The notes under the pieces were generated by a model. It was given only the letters and a program-made list of their open reading frames with translations, had not been told where the DNA came from and did not search any database. From the NCBI GenBank assembly GCA_017619755.1, contig JAFZRU010000022.1, positions 1-59,984 of the forward strand: DNA of 59,984 bases, written 5' to 3'. Shown here one piece after another: positions 68 through 8,545 of the stretch. Source of the DNA: Prevotella sp. GTDB lineage: Bacteria; Bacteroidota; Bacteroidia; Bacteroidales; Bacteroidaceae. The translations under genes were made by a program, and so were the position numbers. The first letter of the stretch is position 1. Each line of letters begins with the position of its first letter.

Positions 68-793
68 ATGCTAAACAAACAATGGTTAGTGGTACACTTT
101 TCGATTATTAGGGGTGGTACACTTTTCAGTTACAATCTACATTTTTTACAAATGGTTATATTATCTTGTGACATCGAGCAGCGTTATCGCATAGCTTTTA
201 TGTCTCAATTTGAAAATATGGCTCACCACCTTCTGAATATTTCACCCTGCGTTATGTCAATACCTGACCTTGCTGAATTATTCAATTTCAAGTCACCGCA
301 TACGGTTCGTAACTACGTTGACTATCTCAAACAGGCTTTCCTGCTTGTTGGGTTGAAGAAATTTTCTCAGAAGAGCAAACAGCGTATGGTTGGCGAAAAG
401 GTGTATGCTGTTGACGTAGCCCTGATGAACCAAAGGGAGAATGCGTTTGCGGGAGAAAACCTTGGGTGGCCGCTGGAGACCATGGTCTTGATTCATCTTA
501 TTCGCAAGTGCAAGTTTGAGGGATGGGATGTTTATTATCTCAAAGAGCGATCCGGTGAGTGCGACTTTGTGGTGTGCGATGGCAACAAAGTGCTACAGTG
601 CGTCCAAGTGTCATACGACAGCTCATTGGCCAAAACGCGTAAACGGGAAATCAACGGACTTCTTTTGGCTCATAGGCTGACCAAGTGCGAAACCCTGCTC
701 TTACTGACAGACCATGAGTATGAAGAAGTGGATATGGATGGCCTCCATATCCAAATTAAACCCGTGTATGAATGGTGTACTGAAATAACGTGA
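68..793 (+). pseudogene. 5'-truncated DUF4143 (AAA-family ATP-binding) protein
   Basis: From about residue 35 (DIEQRYRI) the translation matches the C-terminal half of the AAA_14/DUF4143 ATP-binding family: a winged-helix-like segment (HTVRNYVDYLKQAFLL), then the nuclease-like end with YYLKERSGECDFVV. Family members are usually about 400 residues and begin with a Walker A/B ATPase domain. That domain is absent: the first ~34 residues of this reading frame are unrelated and come from DNA with IS-like direct repeats. I read this as a remnant whose 5' end was replaced by an insertion; the stated start is only the first in-frame ATG. The remaining frame is open to its stop, so loss was recent or the fragment is still translated. 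Confidence 0.7.
89..127 (+). repeat. 14-bp direct repeat, IS-end-like
   Basis: GTGGTACACTTTTC occurs at 89-102 and again at 114-127, a 25-bp period. Short spaced direct repeats of this kind are typical of IS21-family termini. They lie immediately before the point where homology to the DUF4143 protein begins, so they probably mark the end of an inserted or partly deleted element. No transposase is present inside the window. Confidence 0.5.
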
Positions 794-863: not shown

Positions 864-1253
864 TCACTTAACAATCTCTACTTGGTAAACAAAACCCTCG
901 TCATCGAGACGCATGGTTTCATATCCTTTGCCGCCGTATGTGATTTTGATGCCTAATCGGTGTTTTCCGGGTGTTTGGTTTTCCAAAAGAAAATTAAGTC
1001 CAAAGGGTGATTTCTTCACTTTTTCTATGAGTTTCCCATCCCAATAATAATCAACCCGTTTGATTTCTAACCCAAGGCTGCTTTTTGCCGTATTAACACC
1101 TACGGTAACATCTTCATATTGGCCATTTTCAATAGGGCTTTTATAATTGATGGTGAAATCAGCTTTGGGAATGATTTTGTACAAAGTGAATGAGGTGCAT
1201 AAAACAATAAGGGTGAAAGCCAATGCACCAAAAGTCAGTTTTTTTGTTTTCAT
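864..1253 (-). CDS. Exported hypothetical protein, Ig-like fold suspected
   Basis: This 129-residue protein has an N-terminal hydrophobic segment (about residues 7-25) that acts as a signal peptide or single membrane anchor. The rest is rich in beta-strand patterns, with PGKHRLGIKITYGG near the end, which resembles small bacterial Ig-like domains. No catalytic motif was seen. Its ATG overlaps the stop of the preceding pseudo-caspase gene as ATGA, so the two are probably translationally coupled. It is the last gene of the operon. Function unknown. Confidence 0.75.
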   Translation of the reverse strand: MKTKKLTFGALAFTLIVLCTSFTLYKIIPKADFTINYKSPIENGQYEDVTVGVNTAKSSLGLEIKRVDYYWDGKLIEKVKKSPFGLNFLLENQTPGKHRLGIKITYGGKGYETMRLDDEGFVYQVEIVK

Positions 1254-2128
1254 TTCTCTATGTCTTTTTTGTTTATTTGCTTGATGTCAAACCAATAGGA
1301 TGTTTGATGAATACCGCTGCTTGCATTGATACCGTTAGCTCTTGAAACACAGTCATCGAGCAAATCCGACCATAGGCAATTTCTTCTATAGCATAAATTC
1401 ATAAAAGTGTTACTTAAGTAATAACTCAAGGTGTAAGGAAGTGAATGATTATTGTTTTGACCAGGTTGACATGCCATCAGAATATAATTTCCTTTTTGTG
1501 AGAAAAGATTTTGCCATGCATTCTTTGACGTTTTCCCCCGAAAGGAGTAATTAGTTAAATCGGAATAACGATTGTCGCTTATTCTATCAAGAATGACAAA
1601 ACCCAGGGAGTCGGCAGCTACATCCTCTCTTCCACTTTCGCAGATTACGACTAATAGCCTATGTGGCTTAGCCAGAAGGACAGAAAGGATGTCGGAGAGG
1701 AACATCACCTTTCCCTCTTTCACTGCCACCGAGTCGGAACCAAGGAAAAGCAAAGGAAGACTGTCATTGGGAACTGTGGCTCCCTTTCCACAGAAATAGA
1801 ACATTATCACATCGTTGGCAGCGGTCTTCATATTCGCAATCCTTGCAGATATGAAATCTCTATCTGCCTTTTCTTTTGTAAATTCGTTGGCCACGGCTGT
1901 GAAGGTCGTATTTAGATTGATGCTGTCTGCCAATGTCTGGGTGAAGAAAGAATGATTATCTATGACTATTTGTTCCTCCCCTTTTTTATCTATATCGGCA
2001 CACGAGATGATATGGATGATATCACCTGAACTTTGGTTTTTGGTTTTTGATGGTTGTTGTGGCTGCGCAAAGATGGCGCAAACTGTCATAACAGTATGGA
2101 TGGTGAATAAATATCTAAGGATTCTCAT
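1250..2128 (-). CDS. Exported caspase-fold protein lacking the catalytic dyad
   Basis: A signal peptide (residues 1-21, ending FAQ) is followed by a caspase (peptidase C14) fold. Aligned by eye with the intact caspase upstream in the same operon, the His-bearing SGHG motif is CGKG here (Lys115). After the shared anchor KPH, the TDCC motif reads CESG, so neither Cys is kept. Both catalytic residues are therefore gone, while fold landmarks such as DVIMFYF and KPHRLLVV remain. It is probably a pseudoenzyme that binds substrate or the active paralogue. I chose the ATG at 2128 because GGAGGAG lies 7 nt upstream and the codon follows the previous stop directly; the longer open frame lacks a signal peptide at its start. 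Confidence 0.8.
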   Translation of the reverse strand: MRILRYLFTIHTVMTVCAIFAQPQQPSKTKNQSSGDIIHIISCADIDKKGEEQIVIDNHSFFTQTLADSINLNTTFTAVANEFTKEKADRDFISARIANMKTAANDVIMFYFCGKGATVPNDSLPLLFLGSDSVAVKEGKVMFLSDILSVLLAKPHRLLVVICESGREDVAADSLGFVILDRISDNRYSDLTNYSFRGKTSKNAWQNLFSQKGNYILMACQPGQNNNHSLPYTLSYYLSNTFMNLCYRRNCLWSDLLDDCVSRANGINASSGIHQTSYWFDIKQINKKDIEK

Positions 2129-2130
2129 AG

Positions 2131-2961
2131 TCATACTCCTCCGTTGGTTAGATAATAATGAAAATTCTTGGCATTGTCTTTTGTCTTCCAATCAGCATAC
2201 TTTTCAGCATTTTCGAGGTAAAAGAGGATTTTTTTCTTGCGTTCACTACTCCTATATTTATCTTTACATCCCTGCTTGAAATAGGTCATTAAAGCCAGAC
2301 GGTAGTTCGTGTCGCCGTCTTTGGGATTCAAATCGAATGCTTTCAGATATTCATTGTAAGCCTCGTAATATCGCTTTTGGGAGTACATTTTGGCTGCTCT
2401 TGAGCGAATGGCAAAGATGCTTTCTCCTTGACCTCCACCCAACTCATTCTCGATTGATACAATCTTTGATGTTAAAGAATGAATCCTAACAATGTCATGA
2501 TATTGCTTAGCAAGGGAACCAAACTTTACTTTTTTTGTCACATAAACTTCATAAAAGTTTTTACTATCTTCCTTCTTGAAAGCCTTGGCTTCTTCCAATG
2601 CTTCCACTTTGTCGATAGTTACATCAAAAGCCACTTTCTGCTTAATAGCACAATTAGTCATTTGGGTAATATATGGTAGAAGTGGAACAAATGATTGGTT
2701 GGTAAAATCTTGATTGAACAATCCTATTTCATTAGGCATGCATATATCATTATCACTACATAGATTTGTTATACTGTTTTGAAGGCTGATGGTCTCGTCT
2801 GTTTGGCATCTTTCAAGATTTATTATGTCCATCATTTTGTTAAGATTACTATAAAATGATTTCGCAATGTTTTTAGCGTCATTCTCGCTAAAGGCCATTG
2901 TTTGGATTGCCAGCATCGTTAGAATCAACGTGCAAATTGTATGTAAGTAGATACGTTTCAT
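2131..2961 (-). CDS. Exported TPR-like protein
   Basis: The start MKRIYLHT gives a clear signal peptide (to about residue 23, TMAFS); the open frame extends upstream but without signal features. The C-terminal third holds TPR-like helices (RAAKMYSQKRYYEAYNEYLK, then LNPKDGDTNYRLA). The middle contains four cysteines and no known enzyme motif. It lies 2 bp before the pseudo-caspase start and 17 bp after the barrel-like gene, so it belongs to the same transcript. TPR units usually mediate protein contacts, so a scaffold role is plausible, but no function is shown. Confidence 0.75.
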   Translation of the reverse strand: MKRIYLHTICTLILTMLAIQTMAFSENDAKNIAKSFYSNLNKMMDIINLERCQTDETISLQNSITNLCSDNDICMPNEIGLFNQDFTNQSFVPLLPYITQMTNCAIKQKVAFDVTIDKVEALEEAKAFKKEDSKNFYEVYVTKKVKFGSLAKQYHDIVRIHSLTSKIVSIENELGGGQGESIFAIRSRAAKMYSQKRYYEAYNEYLKAFDLNPKDGDTNYRLALMTYFKQGCKDKYRSSERKKKILFYLENAEKYADWKTKDNAKNFHYYLTNGGV

Positions 2962-2978
2962 AGATATGCAAGTTTCAA

Positions 2979-3749
2979 TCAATAATAGACATTTTGACGA
3001 TTTTCCCGTTGACCTGGTGTCACAGCCCAAATTAGTCCAGCGGACCAATTGTTAAGCTTGCCATTCTCTGATTTCAACAAATCAAAATGATTGATGTCGA
3101 AATATACTCCGAAGTCTTGCAAGCCTTTTGCTGTGGAAACCTTGATGGCCCAGTGACTGGATATTCCGTTATCTATGTCCTCTTTTCCTATCGCTAAAGG
3201 GCCTTTGTAACCCAAGCACATACTGTAACGTATTCCGCCCTCAAACATCAATCTGAAAGGTTTTTCCATATTGCCAATGACGGCAAAAAGAGACCCTCCA
3301 AAGAGAGCCCTGTTCAAGGTGTTTTTATGATGGATATCTGACCCCTCAAATCTACTTTTAAAATGATTGTGTTGGTATTCTGCAGTTGCGTAGGCACCAT
3401 AGTTGAAATCGCTTAATGAACTTGACTGGTATCCTATTTTCAGAGAAGGGTGCAAATTTTGGAATAGTTCATTGGCGGTAAAGCCAGTGATATTGTAGTT
3501 GCGCATATTGATTTTGTCATTTCCCAAATCTCCATTGAAGACAGAATATTCCAAAGCACTTTCAAAGATATTGGAGTGGGTTAGTTCGTTAAGACCGTAT
3601 GTCAAGAAACTTGGATAACTGGCAGTATAGACATTGCCTGCTGCAAAATCTATATGAAAAAACAAGTGTTTGTTGCGAATTTGAGCATTGGCATTAATGG
3701 AGTATGCGGCAACCATTAAAATGATGGCAATTATATTATTTGTTTTCAT
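2979..3749 (-). CDS. Predicted outer membrane beta-barrel-like protein (copy B)
   Basis: This 256-residue protein has a signal peptide ending ANAQ. The body alternates aromatic and polar residues in short strand-like stretches and ends in a strand-like tail, which suggests an 8-10-stranded barrel. It is a diverged paralogue of the first gene of this operon: both share a segment near the N-terminus (FFxIDxxxGxxYxxxPxF), a central SLKxGYQ, and NGxSxH near the C-terminus. The exact function is not recognisable. Confidence 0.7.
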   Translation of the reverse strand: MKTNNIIAIILMVAAYSINANAQIRNKHLFFHIDFAAGNVYTASYPSFLTYGLNELTHSNIFESALEYSVFNGDLGNDKINMRNYNITGFTANELFQNLHPSLKIGYQSSSLSDFNYGAYATAEYQHNHFKSRFEGSDIHHKNTLNRALFGGSLFAVIGNMEKPFRLMFEGGIRYSMCLGYKGPLAIGKEDIDNGISSHWAIKVSTAKGLQDFGVYFDINHFDLLKSENGKLNNWSAGLIWAVTPGQRENRQNVYY

Positions 3750-3764
3750 AATTCTTAATTTGTT

Positions 3765-4559
3765 TTACATTCCTAAAATATTCTTTTTGTAAGAGGGTTT
3801 CATCTCGTCAGGCAGTTCGCTAAAGACTGTAATCAGCCATCCTGAGTTGAACCCTTTCCTCCCAACCTCCTCTATGGTGAAAACATAGTCGGGGATTTGC
3901 ATGAAGATGAACTTCACACTGGTAACATAGTCGAATTTCAAGAGACCTGCTTGTGCTAAAGTGACAAAAGCGGTGAGTTGGTCAAATTCATGGCTTTCTG
4001 ACATATAACCGGGCAAGTTCTTCAAGTCATGGTGGAAAGTACTTGAGAGTTGTATGAAATTCAAGTCATGTTCCAATGGACTAATGATACCATCTTCACT
4101 GGTGGTTATCAAGTTTCCATAGACACCTTTAGCACCGCACAACGCCCATCTGCGTCTCTTTCCATTGTGGCATTCCGGCCTTATGGTAAGCGTCAGAGGA
4201 ACATTTTTCCCTTTGGAGATGACATTGCATCCAACTTGTGCATACCAGGTAGTATCGCAAAATTCAAGACGCGTGTTGTCTTTTATCACTTTGTTTACAA
4301 AAGCATTTGCTTTCTTTTTCAGTGATTCATCCATTTCCACGTCGAAAAGAGAAAATAGGTTTTTCTTGCGATAATCAGGAGAGTTTTTTTCTAAGCCTGG
4401 ATATGACGCTTCTCCATTGAATCGAAGCATGAACTCCTCTACACTCTTCACGTTAGCGGCAAATTGCTCGTTGAGCGTTGGGTCAGATATGTGTTGCCCC
4501 CATGAAACAGTCCATACCCCTATTATGAAGAATGCACATATAAGTCTATGATTGTTCAT
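3765..4559 (-). CDS. Exported hypothetical protein
   Basis: A 264-residue protein with a signal peptide (MNNHRLICAFFIIGVWTVSWGQ). The mature part has no recognised domain. It contains a beta-rich middle (WYAQVGCNVIS, VPLTLTIRPECHNGKRRRWALCG) and a C-terminal half with an alternating helix-strand pattern. It is 9 bp from its upstream neighbour and 15 bp from its downstream one, inside the caspase operon. Periplasm or cell surface is the expected location. Function unknown. Confidence 0.75.
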   Translation of the reverse strand: MNNHRLICAFFIIGVWTVSWGQHISDPTLNEQFAANVKSVEEFMLRFNGEASYPGLEKNSPDYRKKNLFSLFDVEMDESLKKKANAFVNKVIKDNTRLEFCDTTWYAQVGCNVISKGKNVPLTLTIRPECHNGKRRRWALCGAKGVYGNLITTSEDGIISPLEHDLNFIQLSSTFHHDLKNLPGYMSESHEFDQLTAFVTLAQAGLLKFDYVTSVKFIFMQIPDYVFTIEEVGRKGFNSGWLITVFSELPDEMKPSYKKNILGM

Positions 4560-4568
4560 AACCTTTCA

Positions 4569-5213
4569 TTATTGGATACTAACTACAGAAATATCGCCAA
4601 GCAATATTTTCCAGATTTTTTGGCTTCCGCCAGGTGCTGGTACTTCCTTTAGGTCGAAGATGATTTTTACTTTTTTCTTAGTCGTATCAGAATAAACTAG
4701 TCTGTTTTCCACATATCCATAATATTTTTGGTAAAAATATGCCACTCCCTCATATTGCCCATTCGGCAGTTGTCGGATATTGCTGTCAACATATACGGCA
4801 TCAGAAGACTCCACGACCAGACGTGTGTATTTCGTTTTATTTCTCAGTTCCTCAAGATATTCCACCATTGGTTGTGGTCTATGCAATCCCGATCTTTTCC
4901 CCGCCGTCTGCATAGTTACCGCATTATGATGGACTTTTGTTTCTTTTCCGGTTTTCTCGTCAATTTCTGTTAGGTAATAGTCCTTTCCTTTTCCAATGAA
5001 CAATTCCAGCGCATTTGCGGTTGCTGCGTCTTTGTTTTGAGAACTGACTTTTCTGCTCGCAATCTGGCTGATATATTGTTGAAAATCTTCTATCTTGTTC
5101 TTTACACGTATTTGAAGTTCTTTCTTTTCCTTTTCTGTGAGTTGCTGTGCATATGTCAGGCATGGGAAAAAAGAAAGGATGATGAAAAATGATATGATTT
5201 TGATGGTTTTCAT
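4569..5213 (-). CDS. Exported 214-residue protein, tandem copy 2
   Basis: The start MKTIKIIS gives a signal peptide ending TYAQ and exactly the same length as the neighbouring copy (214 residues). A longer open frame upstream runs into the previous gene's end and is rejected. By eye about three quarters of residues match copy 1, with long identical stretches (AQQLTEKEKKELQIRV, ALELFIGKGKDYYLTEID, VHHNAVT). An N-terminal helical part is followed by a beta-rich part with KVKIIFDLKEVP near the end, an arrangement reminiscent of NTF2-like folds. No enzyme motif was seen. Confidence 0.8.
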   Translation of the reverse strand: MKTIKIISFFIILSFFPCLTYAQQLTEKEKKELQIRVKNKIEDFQQYISQIASRKVSSQNKDAATANALELFIGKGKDYYLTEIDEKTGKETKVHHNAVTMQTAGKRSGLHRPQPMVEYLEELRNKTKYTRLVVESSDAVYVDSNIRQLPNGQYEGVAYFYQKYYGYVENRLVYSDTTKKKVKIIFDLKEVPAPGGSQKIWKILLGDISVVSIQ

Positions 5214-5307
5214 TGTGATAAAAGTTTTTGATGATAGTTTTTGTTGTTTTTCTCTTGTTCCGTTCTTATTTTGGTGATGGTGATGTATGGCAGCCCATCC
5301 TAAACGG

Positions 5308-5952
5308 TTAGGTGATTTGATTGATAACCACATCACCAAGCCATACCTTCCATATTTTTTTGCTTCCATTAGATGTTGGCACTTCCTTGAGGTCGAAAAT
5401 GATTTTCACTTTCTTCCATGAAGGATGAATATAAGCCAGCCTGTTTTCCAAATAGTTATAGTATTTCTGGTAGCAATATGCCACTCCCTCGTATTGGCCA
5501 TTGGGAAGTTGTTGGATTATGCTGTCCACATAAAAGGCATCAGCGGACTCTACGACCAGACTTGTGTATCTTGTTTTGTTTCTCAATTCTTTAAGATATT
5601 CCACCATAGGTCGTGGTCTATGCAGGCCCGATTTTTTCTCGACCGTTTGTATGGTGACCGCATTATGGTGGACTTTTGTCTCTTTCCCAGTATTCTCGTC
5701 AATTTCTGTTAGATAATAGTCCTTTCCTTTCCCGATGAACAATTCCAATGCTTTTTCAATTGCTAAGTCCTTGTTTTGAGAACTGACTTTTCTGCTTGCA
5801 ATCAGACTGATATATTGTTGAAAATCTTCTATCTTGTTCATTACACGTATTTGAAGTTCTTTCTTTTCCTTCTCCGTGAGTTGCTGTGCAAATGTCAAGC
5901 TTGGGAAGAAAGAAAGGATGATGAAAGTTGAAATGAATTTGATGGCTTTCAT
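5308..5952 (-). CDS. Exported 214-residue protein, tandem copy 1
   Basis: Tandem paralogue of the next gene downstream, with a signal peptide ending TFAQ. Divergence is concentrated around residues 63-67 and in the C-terminal quarter, while the segment after the signal peptide and the KVHHNAVT region are nearly unchanged. It follows the intact caspase gene by 40 bp. The duplication and its selective divergence suggest related but non-identical partners or substrates. Function unknown. Confidence 0.8.
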   Translation of the reverse strand: MKAIKFISTFIILSFFPSLTFAQQLTEKEKKELQIRVMNKIEDFQQYISLIASRKVSSQNKDLAIEKALELFIGKGKDYYLTEIDENTGKETKVHHNAVTIQTVEKKSGLHRPRPMVEYLKELRNKTRYTSLVVESADAFYVDSIIQQLPNGQYEGVAYCYQKYYNYLENRLAYIHPSWKKVKIIFDLKEVPTSNGSKKIWKVWLGDVVINQIT

Positions 5953-5992
5953 TGTGATGATAGTTTTTGATGAATGTTTCTGTTGCCTTTCC

Positions 5993-7147
5993 TTATTCCG
6001 TTCTCATTTCTGTGATTGTGATGTATGGTAACCCATCAGAAGCGGTTTCCTCTTTGATCACATTGATGCGAACTATCTTTTTGGAGGATGCGATGCGCCT
6101 GAAGAATGTTGCGGCCTCTTCATAATCAACTACGGTCTCAAGGTCACGTCCTAATGTGACTATATGTCCTCCTGTCGGGAAATGGCTGTTGAGGATTTGT
6201 GGTATCATGTTTAAGCGTTGTGAGACATCTTGTTGAGACAGAATGGTAGCCAACACATTTGTCAATGGTGTATTGGTGGTAATTTGATTATTGTTATTAG
6301 AAGGCGTGGGAGGTGTAGGGATGGGTACTGGTGTGGTTTCGCCACCATTCGTGCTATGGATGTCAATTACAAAATATGGCTCTTGTTCTTCTGGCCTAGG
6401 CAAGCGGCTAGCCTGGGCCATTGTTTCCTTTGTTGTTTCACGCAAAATATTTTGCCAGGAGGGATTGTTGCCTTGTGAGCATTCCGCATAAAGTTTGTCC
6501 CAAAAACAGATGGAAAAGAGGCCTCCTTTTGTGAGGGCTATTGAGGTTTGTCCCAATTTACATCCCGTGGCCATTATCTTTCCTTTGCTTTCCACGAACA
6601 GACGCTTGTAGTTGGCCGCCTCGCTCGACTTGGCTATGGTAGTGGATTGAAGTTGGGAAAGCGCTGACTTTGGCCTGACACCATTGACTATGTTGTTGCA
6701 ACAATCGGTGAGAATGAGCAGCAAACCGTGAGGTTTTTTGTCCAATTGCTCTGCCACTAACCTCACAGGAACGAAATCACCCTCATAGCGAGAATTAAGG
6801 AGCATTTGTGGAAACTTGTCATTGTCTTGTCCGGGTGCATGTGTGCCATGGCCTGAATAATAAAATACGATGATATCGTTGGATTGGGTTTGGATTGTAT
6901 TTACAACTTTCATCAAATTGCTTTTAGTGCAATTGGAACCATTATAAACATAACGTGCAACTTTGTAACCGATATAGCCGGCAATATCATCTATTTCATC
7001 TAATTCACGATCGTTATCTTCACAAACGCTCTCACCAATATTTGGATCGTTTGTATCGCAAAACATGATGTTGTGAAGGGTTTGTGAGAATGAAAGGGTG
7101 GATGTCAAAACGCATCCCCATATAAGCAGTGTCTTTTTAATATTCAT
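5993..7147 (-). CDS. Exported caspase-family peptidase (C14), catalytic dyad intact
   Basis: A 384-residue protein with a signal peptide ending SFSQ. The caspase-like domain spans about residues 24-235: IIVFYYSGHG carries the catalytic His100, and LLLILTDCC carries the nucleophile Cys150 in the usual position after Asp. A linker rich in P, T and N (about 268-290) leads to a C-terminal region (290-384) that I do not recognise. Known caspase-like peptidases cleave after acidic or basic residues; specificity here cannot be read. The signal peptide puts it in the periplasm or outside the cell, unlike most prokaryotic caspases, which are cytoplasmic. It shares an operon with a catalytically dead paralogue. 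Confidence 0.88.
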   Translation of the reverse strand: MNIKKTLLIWGCVLTSTLSFSQTLHNIMFCDTNDPNIGESVCEDNDRELDEIDDIAGYIGYKVARYVYNGSNCTKSNLMKVVNTIQTQSNDIIVFYYSGHGTHAPGQDNDKFPQMLLNSRYEGDFVPVRLVAEQLDKKPHGLLLILTDCCNNIVNGVRPKSALSQLQSTTIAKSSEAANYKRLFVESKGKIMATGCKLGQTSIALTKGGLFSICFWDKLYAECSQGNNPSWQNILRETTKETMAQASRLPRPEEQEPYFVIDIHSTNGGETTPVPIPTPPTPSNNNNQITTNTPLTNVLATILSQQDVSQRLNMIPQILNSHFPTGGHIVTLGRDLETVVDYEEAATFFRRIASSKKIVRINVIKEETASDGLPYITITEMRTE

Positions 7148-7189
7148 AGTTTCAGTGTTTTTTGTTTGAAAAGGTTTGTGACAAGCCTG

Positions 7190-7723
7190 TCATCTCTTTT
7201 CTTTTTGGGCTTGTTGTTGGATAAAATAATTGCAGAAGCGCTCTATTACATCACGCTCTACGTAGTCGTAAGTAAACTGTGTCTTGCCATCATAGTAAAT
7301 GCTCCATGACATATTGGCAAGTGAAACGAGAAGCCAGGCTTTTTTCTTCCCCTTGGCAAACTCAAATGCTAGCCTTGGCATATAGGGGCTTTTCACCTTG
7401 GCAGGATTGACATGATAGTTTGCTTCGTTAGATGGAATGAGAAATTCAAGGATGGCTACTTCTTGGCGACTCAATTTGGTAATCAATTCACCCAATACGA
7501 AATTTTCAGTGAAAGCAAAATCGGTTTCTGATGGCTGACGAACATTTCGTACAGCATAGCATTTCACTGTCGATGGAGAAGACAACAATTGTGCAAGACT
7601 CGTGCCCAACTGTTTGCATACAATGGAGTCTGGTGTGAGCATTTTGTTTGGTTTAGTTGGCTGGCACCCCCACAGGTTGAAATTTACGAGGATAGCGATG
7701 AATAAGATAATTATTTTTCTCAT
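7190..7723 (-). CDS. Predicted lipoprotein, unknown function
   Basis: A 177-residue protein with an N-terminal hydrophobic segment ending in the lipobox-like NLWGC, so Cys20 is probably lipidated after signal peptidase II cleavage. The mature part is mixed alpha/beta with no recognised motif. It is 12 bp downstream of the barrel-like gene and 42 bp upstream of the caspase gene. Lipid anchoring beside a barrel protein suggests an outer membrane complex, but this is inference. Confidence 0.75.
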   Translation of the reverse strand: MRKIIILFIAILVNFNLWGCQPTKPNKMLTPDSIVCKQLGTSLAQLLSSPSTVKCYAVRNVRQPSETDFAFTENFVLGELITKLSRQEVAILEFLIPSNEANYHVNPAKVKSPYMPRLAFEFAKGKKKAWLLVSLANMSWSIYYDGKTQFTYDYVERDVIERFCNYFIQQQAQKEKR

Positions 7724-7735
7724 AACAATTTGGTT

Positions 7736-8545
7736 TTAAAAGTCTTTTGCTAATACAATACTAAAATTCCAACGACGGGAGTGGATTTTCTCGTAGGGTC
7801 GAACGTTCCCAAGTTCGTATTCTTTGTTAAAGAATTCGTAATGGTCATGCTCGATATCAAGAATGAGTGAGGCACTCTCCCATTTCCAACCGAGACCCAC
7901 ATGTGTGGATAAGCCATTGTTCAACTCCTTTTTGTCTCCATCAAATCCGCCTTTGAGTCCAAAGTGGTAGTTATAGGTACTACCTATTTCTATAATAGGT
8001 GCTCCGAAATCTTCTTCCATCAAAAATTCCAAAGGTGAGATTCTAATGCCTAATCCAGGACGGAATGTGTCAATACGGTATTTCGTCCACTCACCATCTT
8101 CCTCTTCGCTAAACATTAGCCTAAAGTTCTCATGCGCGTATCCTAATCGTGCATAAAAGCCAACAGGGATGAGTTCTGGTTGATATCCAAATTTCAAACT
8201 TATGTCAATGTCACGGAATATGTCTTCAGCACGCCAACCAACGTTGCGGACTAAATTGTATTTGTAATCATCCCAGCTTTTAAAAGACCTATTGTAACCC
8301 CAACTTTTCATCTTCACGCCGTCGTTAAAATACCGTGCATAGCGAGAGTTTAACCCAGGGTTAACACAAAAAGGAATATCCTCATCCATTGTAAGACCCT
8401 GAGCTATAAAAAATGGGAAAAGAGGATATATGTGTCCTGATTCCGCATCAAGGGTGATAAAAAAACGACTTTGAGCAGACCCGCTCATTGGGCTTAGCAA
8501 TAACACTGCCAAGGCCATCAAGTTTAATTTCCATTTGTTTTTCAT
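7736..8545 (-). CDS. Predicted outer membrane beta-barrel-like protein (copy A)
   Basis: First gene of the caspase operon, 269 residues, with a signal peptide ending GSAQ. Strand-like segments rich in aromatic residues and Gly run to the C-terminus, which ends on Phe (SIVLAKDF), as many outer membrane barrels do. It is a paralogue of the seventh gene of the operon (shared layout FFxxxDxxxGxxYxxxPFF, SLKFGYQ, NNGLSTH). No Bacteroidota -7 box was found close upstream on this strand; the nearest good one is about 400 bp away. Confidence 0.7.
   Translation of the reverse strand: MKNKWKLNLMALAVLLLSPMSGSAQSRFFITLDAESGHIYPLFPFFIAQGLTMDEDIPFCVNPGLNSRYARYFNDGVKMKSWGYNRSFKSWDDYKYNLVRNVGWRAEDIFRDIDISLKFGYQPELIPVGFYARLGYAHENFRLMFSEEEDGEWTKYRIDTFRPGLGIRISPLEFLMEEDFGAPIIEIGSTYNYHFGLKGGFDGDKKELNNGLSTHVGLGWKWESASLILDIEHDHYEFFNKEYELGNVRPYEKIHSRRWNFSIVLAKDF

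Follow-up and report, generated by a model that had tools for sequence, protein, structure and literature searches.

A caspase-bearing form of a candidate extracytoplasmic gene module in Prevotella and its recurrence across Bacteroidales

Bacterial caspases have been studied almost only as cytoplasmic enzymes of conflict or cell death. In the parts of the literature drawn on here, caspase papers cover cytoplasmic or inner-membrane conflict systems, pseudo-orthocaspases and polymorphic toxins (PMC3501461; PMC6426788; PMC3482391; PMC8195603; PMC7159879), and the sections used of one caspase survey list mostly cytoplasmic-type architectures, with an N-terminal helix, possibly a signal peptide, in 46 of 671 cases (PMC3501461). 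Nearest in logic to the locus described here is the EACC1-caspase system, in which, as far as the sections used go, a constant component is coupled to a caspase and partner domains are interchangeable (Kaur et al., 2020; PMC7159879). Here, we describe a ten-gene, minus-strand operon (g1 to g10, positions 864-8545) in the window, by which we mean the whole 59,984-nucleotide stretch of Prevotella sp. contig JAFZRU010000022.1 (assembly GCA_017619755.1) that was analysed. Whereas the EACC1-caspase system, in the same sections, has two genes, belongs to the cytoplasm or inner membrane and keeps the caspase constant (PMC7159879), the present locus has the caspase as its variable part, and every product is predicted to be exported.

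The caspase gene of the operon, g3, scores 23.7 bits against the NCBIfam EACC1-associated caspase model, below its cut-off of 140, and the ten genes gave no NCBIfam match to an EACC1-like component, with no dedicated EACC1 model run. Compared with caspases, metacaspases and orthocaspases (Pfam C14, PF00656), g3 differs in being exported, in ending in a new C-terminal domain (CTD) and in being encoded with g5 and g6; compared with the NTF2-like superfamily (CaMKII hub, ketosteroid isomerase, SnoaL-type), g5 has no Pfam NTF2-clan match, is exported and keeps a fixed partnership with g6. At E up to 1, the ten proteins showed no Por_Secre_tail or other type IX secretion C-terminal signal of the kind expected of gingipain-like cargo. 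As an earlier note on this stretch, made from the sequence alone, had supposed, no described system of this composition was found in the open-licence PMC literature (subscription papers and preprints lay outside the search). Nor did that literature yield an exported caspase with NTF2-like partners, and the module is for that reason rated as new. The newness claimed is that of the module and its swapping, the individual folds being already known.

We give roughly an even chance to the reading that this operon is a caspase-armed, horizontally acquired version of a resident, hitherto undescribed extracytoplasmic module in Bacteroidales, in which the CTD tethers the protease to a scaffold of g5 and g6. 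The module core would be three adjacent genes: one for an "output" protein ending in the CTD (here g3, 5993-7147), one for a full-length NTF2-like protein (g5, 4569-5213, 214 aa, with the start at 5213 preferred over a longer open reading frame (ORF) starting at 5369) and g6 (3765-4559), which encodes an exported 264-aa protein of a new conserved family. g6 has no Pfam or NCBIfam match, and a PDB sequence search with its profile gave nothing convincing. The profile matches in 6 of 251 family-level genomes (2 of the 17 of the same genus, the window's own counted), in 81 of 393 order-level genomes and, in a fuller version, in 7 of 395 phylum-level genomes, again with the window's own included; members carrying g6 include Palleniella intestinalis and several gut metagenome-assembled genomes (MAGs).

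Neighbourhoods were gathered for 88 order-level match places (86 new loci, the window and G033) and for 7 places in 6 other phylum-level genomes. Class I loci read (barrel A), (immunoglobulin (Ig) lipoprotein), lipoprotein g2, caspase, g5, g6, (barrel B), (tetratricopeptide repeat (TPR) protein), and class II loci consist of a lipoprotein of about 220 aa, g5, g6 and a leucine-rich-repeat (LRR) protein of about 870 aa, without a caspase. When the 251 family genomes were searched with g3, 17 had a caspase match, mostly in other exported-caspase loci; by neighbourhood comparison, G207 and G071 share the gene set of the window, and G247 and G033 have part of that set. The long form of class I, with seven shared genes, is present in the window, G207, G421 and G603 and probably in G071 over two contigs, so that an exported caspase does recur together with lipoprotein, barrel-like and repeat proteins in a shared gene order, and a caspase joined to the CTD is found in the window and in 14 other loci of 13 other genomes.

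Across the 86 order-level loci, 84 have g6 by profile and the two without are both weak matches; the census used a home-made ORF caller that cut or merged the g6 ORF in a few loci (e.g. L033, L100, L162), which lowers its counts. In the 68 loci with more than 2.5 kb upstream, g5 was found in 61, a CTD protein in 57 and the lipoprotein type in 50; a caspase-domain protein lies upstream of g6 in six, one of them (L089) without the His, and 11 lack g5 or a CTD protein by the census test. An LRR protein is present in 65 of the 80 loci with more than 1.5 kb downstream; the census label "G8N" is a mixed profile and not one family. All seven phylum-level loci have g5, six have the lipoprotein-type CTD protein and five the LRR protein. 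The CTD-g5-g6 core is the most conserved part and is much commoner without the caspase. The earlier description of the operon as built around a caspase and a pseudo-caspase is not supported, since a gene like the pseudo-caspase g9 is seen in the window only, the pair of 214-residue proteins is a local duplication, the barrels occur in part of the caspase loci only and the core is CTD-g5-g6.

Several further arrangements were observed around these genes. In L158, L181 and L182, a protein of about 1,100-1,140 aa and one of about 640 aa stand before g5 and g6, the large protein of L182 having Ig and FG-GAP repeats and a type IX secretion tail. Locus L057 (G157:C198, 1371-14692, 13 kb) combines LytTR, two FHA, PP2C, Ser/Thr kinase and Sel1 genes and a second caspase (260 aa) with CTD-g5-g6-WG, and L058 (G071:C247, 3238-4641) has an exported papain-like C1 peptidase with DUF4384, a second protease type, after a g6-barrel-TPR stretch. 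In L034 (G033:C3, 6627-8347), a second intact exported caspase follows a distant g2-like protein (E 5e-4), and lipoprotein and caspase may therefore be duplicated together. Of a different type are the triads of exported caspase, lipoprotein and exported caspase in L035 and L042 (family genus g14); triads of this type occur in several genomes of one genus and have G+C contents close to those of their neighbours. Locus L041 (G207:C9, 9304-19855) holds a caspase, a lipoprotein, unknown genes, a trypsin-like protease, a protein of about 1,150 aa and a weakly tubulin-like protein, and L038 (G083:C496, 12907-14826) a caspase followed by a DNA/RNA non-specific endonuclease; the two look like another undescribed protease-nuclease conflict locus.

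g3 encodes a predicted exported caspase (residues ~23-266), a linker and the CTD (~291-384). In the Pfam scan it matches PF00656 at E 5.2e-13 (49.6 bits, cut-off 21.4), structure comparison assigns it the caspase fold, the catalytic dyad His100/Cys150 is invariant in 15 of 15 alignment rows, and a PDB sequence search with the caspase profile leads to metacaspase-9; these results bear out its description in the earlier note as an active-looking caspase, with the activity being predicted. PADLOC returned a single kind of match, a generic caspase model, and nine other Pfam/NCBIfam matches at E up to 1, all below cut-off, were disregarded. The CTD is a separate domain of the last ~90 residues, for which the model gives the topology helix-helix-strand-strand-helix-strand-strand (residues 294-382), and it looks like an NTF2 cone without its last strands. 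In hhalign comparisons it scored 79.7% against the CTD of the class II lipoproteins and 39.2% against g5, where 100 column-shuffled controls reached at most 3.8% and 2.7%, respectively.

A profile of the CTD finds the other class I caspases and the proteins of L089 (caspase family, His replaced by Gly), L057 (an N-terminus of a different kind) and L175. The L175 protein has a Ser/Thr kinase domain (PF00069, E 2.4e-53, residues 9-261), one hydrophobic segment (323-341) and the CTD (444-514), and its gene directly precedes g5-g6. Among 3,069 pooled ORFs, the matches of the profile up to E 1 were its 14 training rows, three further caspases, L175, one class II lipoprotein and five g5 proteins, all of them in g6 loci. 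These matches and the profile comparisons indicate that the slot before g5-g6 is filled by otherwise different proteins that have a C-terminal domain in common. Kinase, PP2C or FHA genes lie near g5-g6 in L057, L119, L175 and L176.

By structure comparison g5 has an NTF2 cone fold, a call that rests on VIA-align; the VIA lists for g3 and g5 cover chains ranked high by Foldseek and leave room for other families. A Pfam scan of g4 and g5 gave no NTF2-clan or NTF2-type family, and a PDB sequence search with the g5 profile gave nothing convincing. Iterated searches drifted and were not used as evidence. g4 (5308-5952), with 79% amino-acid identity to g5, arose by a tandem duplication with a spacing of 739 bp that carried along about the last 56 bp of g3; this copy of the g3 3' end lies between g4 and g5 at 5254-5309 (source 5992-6047, 82% identical) and accounts for the unusual 94-bp gap between the two genes. 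Divergence between the copies (nonsynonymous dN 0.124, synonymous dS 0.615, ratio about 0.20) suggests that selection is maintained on both. The duplicated g4 is a local addition; in other caspase loci the g5 counterpart is single-copy and lies directly upstream of g6.

Such a duplication and the patchy distribution of the caspase loci would suit a conflict role, and a secreted toxin-immunity locus, with the caspase as toxin or releasing peptidase and g4/g5 as immunity proteins, is an unlikely alternative. Polymorphic toxin systems, in the passages used, employ caspase-like peptidases for processing or as toxins, combine them with NTF2-fold and LRR proteins, and include Imm-NTF2 immunity proteins (PMC3482391); they differ from the present locus, which has no long toxin carrier or toxin domain and whose NTF2-like gene is widely conserved without a peptidase. 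Against this alternative, g5-g6 is widespread and syntenic in loci without a caspase (50 of 68 have the lipoprotein-type CTD protein, and one locus has a kinase), the Pfam scan recognised no toxin, RHS or trafficking domain in the ten proteins, and g5 and g6 are themselves exported.

The remaining genes frame this core. The lipoprotein g2 (7190-7723, 177 aa) adjoins the caspase on its upstream side, and its lipobox Cys is kept without exception in the 11 homologues aligned, as expected of the lipoprotein that had been proposed. Strong matches to g2 (E < 1e-50) occur in 5 and strong barrel matches in 4 of the 251 family genomes, all g6-positive, with one weak match each (E 9.9e-4 and 5.6e-4) in a g6-negative genome; the profiles of both were built partly from the same g6-positive genomes that they match, and in G157 about 11 kb separate the barrel from g6. 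No convincing match came out of PDB sequence searches with the lipoprotein and barrel profiles. Barrel-like proteins A (g1, 7736-8545, 269 aa) and B (g7, 2979-3749, 256 aa) are paralogues of one family, as had been noted, and are likely barrels on weak sequence support, OMP_b-brl_2 (PF13568) being found in 1 of 13 members and in neither g1 nor g7. The g1 family is kept in G207, G071, G421, G603 and G573, and a g7 homologue immediately follows g6 in G207, G071, G421 and G603. The exported g8 product (2131-2961, 276 aa) has homologues after barrel B in G207, G421 and G603, and its earlier description as TPR-like has behind it a PF13414 match of 18.5 bits, below cut-off.

Two accessory genes end the operon. 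g10 (864-1253, 129 aa) encodes an exported Ig-like protein with a sub-cut-off match to Big_7 (20.9 bits); of its relatives, those of G207 and G071 are short lipoproteins and those of G033, G247 and Palleniella are longer Ig-type proteins. g9 (1250-2128, 292 aa) encodes an exported pseudo-caspase without the CTD, which scores 24.5 bits against PF00656, over the cut-off of 21.4, sits on a very long branch and has a best identity of 20%; it is a local, accessory addition. The catalytic His is replaced by Lys in either alignment, as the earlier claim of missing catalytic residues requires. The loss of Cys depends on the alignment, one pairing DCC with ESG and another aligning the neighbouring Cys by way of a three-residue gap. 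In the parts of the source used, pseudo-orthocaspases carry Tyr/Ser at both catalytic positions and are mostly cyanobacterial or alphaproteobacterial, with 10 of 1,078 sequences from Bacteroidetes; g9 resembles them in matching the caspase fold family without the intact catalytic pair, subject to the alignment of the Cys, and differs in having Lys rather than Tyr/Ser at the His position (PMC6426788).

All ten ORFs were found at 864-8545 as previously outlined, with a hydrophobic leader at the start of every product; export of all ten is predicted from hydropathy, leader motifs and their conservation in homologues. The intergenic gaps from g1 to g10 are 12, 42, 40, 94, 9, 15, 17, 2 and -4 bp, with -4 instead of 2 bp between g8 and g9 if the alternative g9 start at 2134 is used. 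Upstream the operon is bounded by a gap of several hundred bases and a divergent gene, and downstream by an inverted repeat (787-828, 42 nt, 18-nt arms and a 6-nt loop), a candidate operon end between the convergent ends of g10 and a DUF4143 gene (68-793), though this repeat is absent from the consensus terminator list. The Bacteroidetes-type promoter consensus (TTTG/TANNTTTG) has three matches in the window and none in the operon (chance mean 0.67), and scans for sigma-70-type promoters and terminators came out near or above shuffled background and were discarded. As no promoter consensus supported a start site, the assignment to one operon is based on spacing and conserved order. The window contains no tRNA. 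DUF4143 has four matches in the window's genome, and AAA-ATPase genes (DUF4143, DUF234 or ATPase_2) lie beside caspase operons in the window (68-793), L031 (2207-5136), L091 (1242-2570) and L044 (4835-6283); such neighbours could mark shared variable regions.

The operon has a G+C content of 39.6%, against 55.7% in the rest of the window. Among 12 caspase-type and 10 lipoprotein-type loci, the difference from the flanks ranges from -0.161 to -0.013 in the former, negative in 12 of 12 and at -0.057 or lower in nine, and from -0.033 to +0.017 in the latter. In the caspase tree, G033, of the window's genus, groups with Palleniella, G247, a deer-gut MAG and G573 of another family (99/100), apart from the window, whose own tree position is not settled; two genomes of one genus carry different subtypes. 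The G+C contents, the caspase tree and the restriction of strong g2 and barrel matches to g6-positive genomes fit a history in which class I spread horizontally and class II was inherited vertically, and the caspase operons, patchy and low in G+C, look horizontally acquired. No support emerged for a phage or plasmid origin, no g6 relative being found in viral contigs (pattern scan), 72,556 plasmid records or 50,697 phage records; integrative elements are still compatible.

This pattern bears on an envelope housekeeping or stress protease acting on misfolded or surface proteins without a dedicated signal, which we hold to be as unlikely as a toxin-immunity locus. The predicted export of all parts, the barrels and lipoproteins, and the single-copy lipoprotein-type relatives of native G+C content across whole families would all agree with it. 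The caspase-type loci, however, are rare and AT-rich, unlike a housekeeping gene, the kinase and FHA associations point to signalling, and caspases usually cut few sites. That the exported genes have simply gathered in a variable region with no joint function is improbable: low G+C content, the contig-end position, the adjoining DUF4143 gene and the loose attachment of g9 and g10 speak for such a junk-yard, but the order of eight genes is kept across families, g2 and the barrels have no strong match in g6-negative genomes, and the dN/dS of g4/g5 is about 0.20. Slightly more improbable still is a protein-nutrient harvesting locus, similar to polysaccharide utilisation but for peptides, because, although the protease, lipoprotein and barrel-like proteins of the window have carbohydrate-degradation-like genes as neighbours, the Pfam scan gave no SusC- or SusD-type domain in the ten proteins, the barrels have just ~250 aa and the core exists without a protease.

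Under the reading of a caspase-armed module, with all parts exported, the CTD would be the connector, a truncated NTF2-like piece with its full-length relative g5 encoded nearby, and the caspase would dock through it onto the g5/g6 scaffold. The lipoprotein g2 and the barrel-like g1 and g7 may hold the assembly at the outer membrane, where the locus would form a proteolytic system. A ligand might be sensed by the repeat protein (TPR here; LRR, WG or TPR elsewhere) or by g5/g6, and sensing could cluster or release the caspase to cut a target in the envelope or outside the cell. In CaMKII an NTF2-type hub gathers kinase domains; by analogy, g5/g6 might gather or gate caspases here and kinases elsewhere. 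Inactive caspase homologues of animals bind partners of the active ones, and g9 could likewise be a decoy or regulator, possibly binding the same partners. Envelope stress response, competition, and a response to phage or cell death are candidate purposes. Together the anatomy suggests an extracytoplasmic device of plug-and-play type, for signalling or proteolysis.

Several observations weigh against this reading. By Foldseek alone, the best E for g5 is 5e-3 and none falls below 1e-3; the CTD topology was read within the g3 model, and VIA barely covered the CTD; g6 shows no relation to g5. Sharing of the g5 domain by g8, the LRR protein N-terminus and a 362-aa protein, initially valued at up to 92%, was rejected when trimming of the signal peptides lowered the values to 0.4%, 20.7% and 14.8%, the higher ones having been partly leader artefacts. 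The kinase-CTD fusion is a single case (E 2.9e-4 in the 3,069-ORF pool), and 7 of the 68 order-level loci have no recognised g5. In three caspase-type operons out of 12, the G+C difference (-0.013 to -0.018) falls within the lipoprotein-type range, no transposase, integrase or other gene of a mobile element was recognised, and the operon is situated at the end of a contig. Docking, localisation, triggering and the role of g9 are all read from the anatomy of the locus.

A broader proposal, which we regard as tentative and somewhat less probable than the caspase-armed module itself, is that CTD-g5-g6 serves Bacteroidales generally as an NTF2-like receptor or hub outside the cytoplasm, with different outputs plugged in during evolution: a lipoprotein, a transmembrane Ser/Thr kinase, a caspase or a dead caspase. 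The caspase form would then be a transferable counterpart, in the periplasm, of the death or immunity complexes that join an adaptor to a caspase. If true, the module would give a concrete model of how bacteria use caspases outside the cytoplasm, the caspase being exported along with a fixed scaffold and replaced by a kinase or a lipoprotein in other loci. It would also provide a function for the g5, g6 and CTD families, which lack a Pfam or NCBIfam name, in about a fifth of the order's sampled genomes (81/393), and it makes testable whether one envelope receptor is common to caspase output and phospho-signalling.

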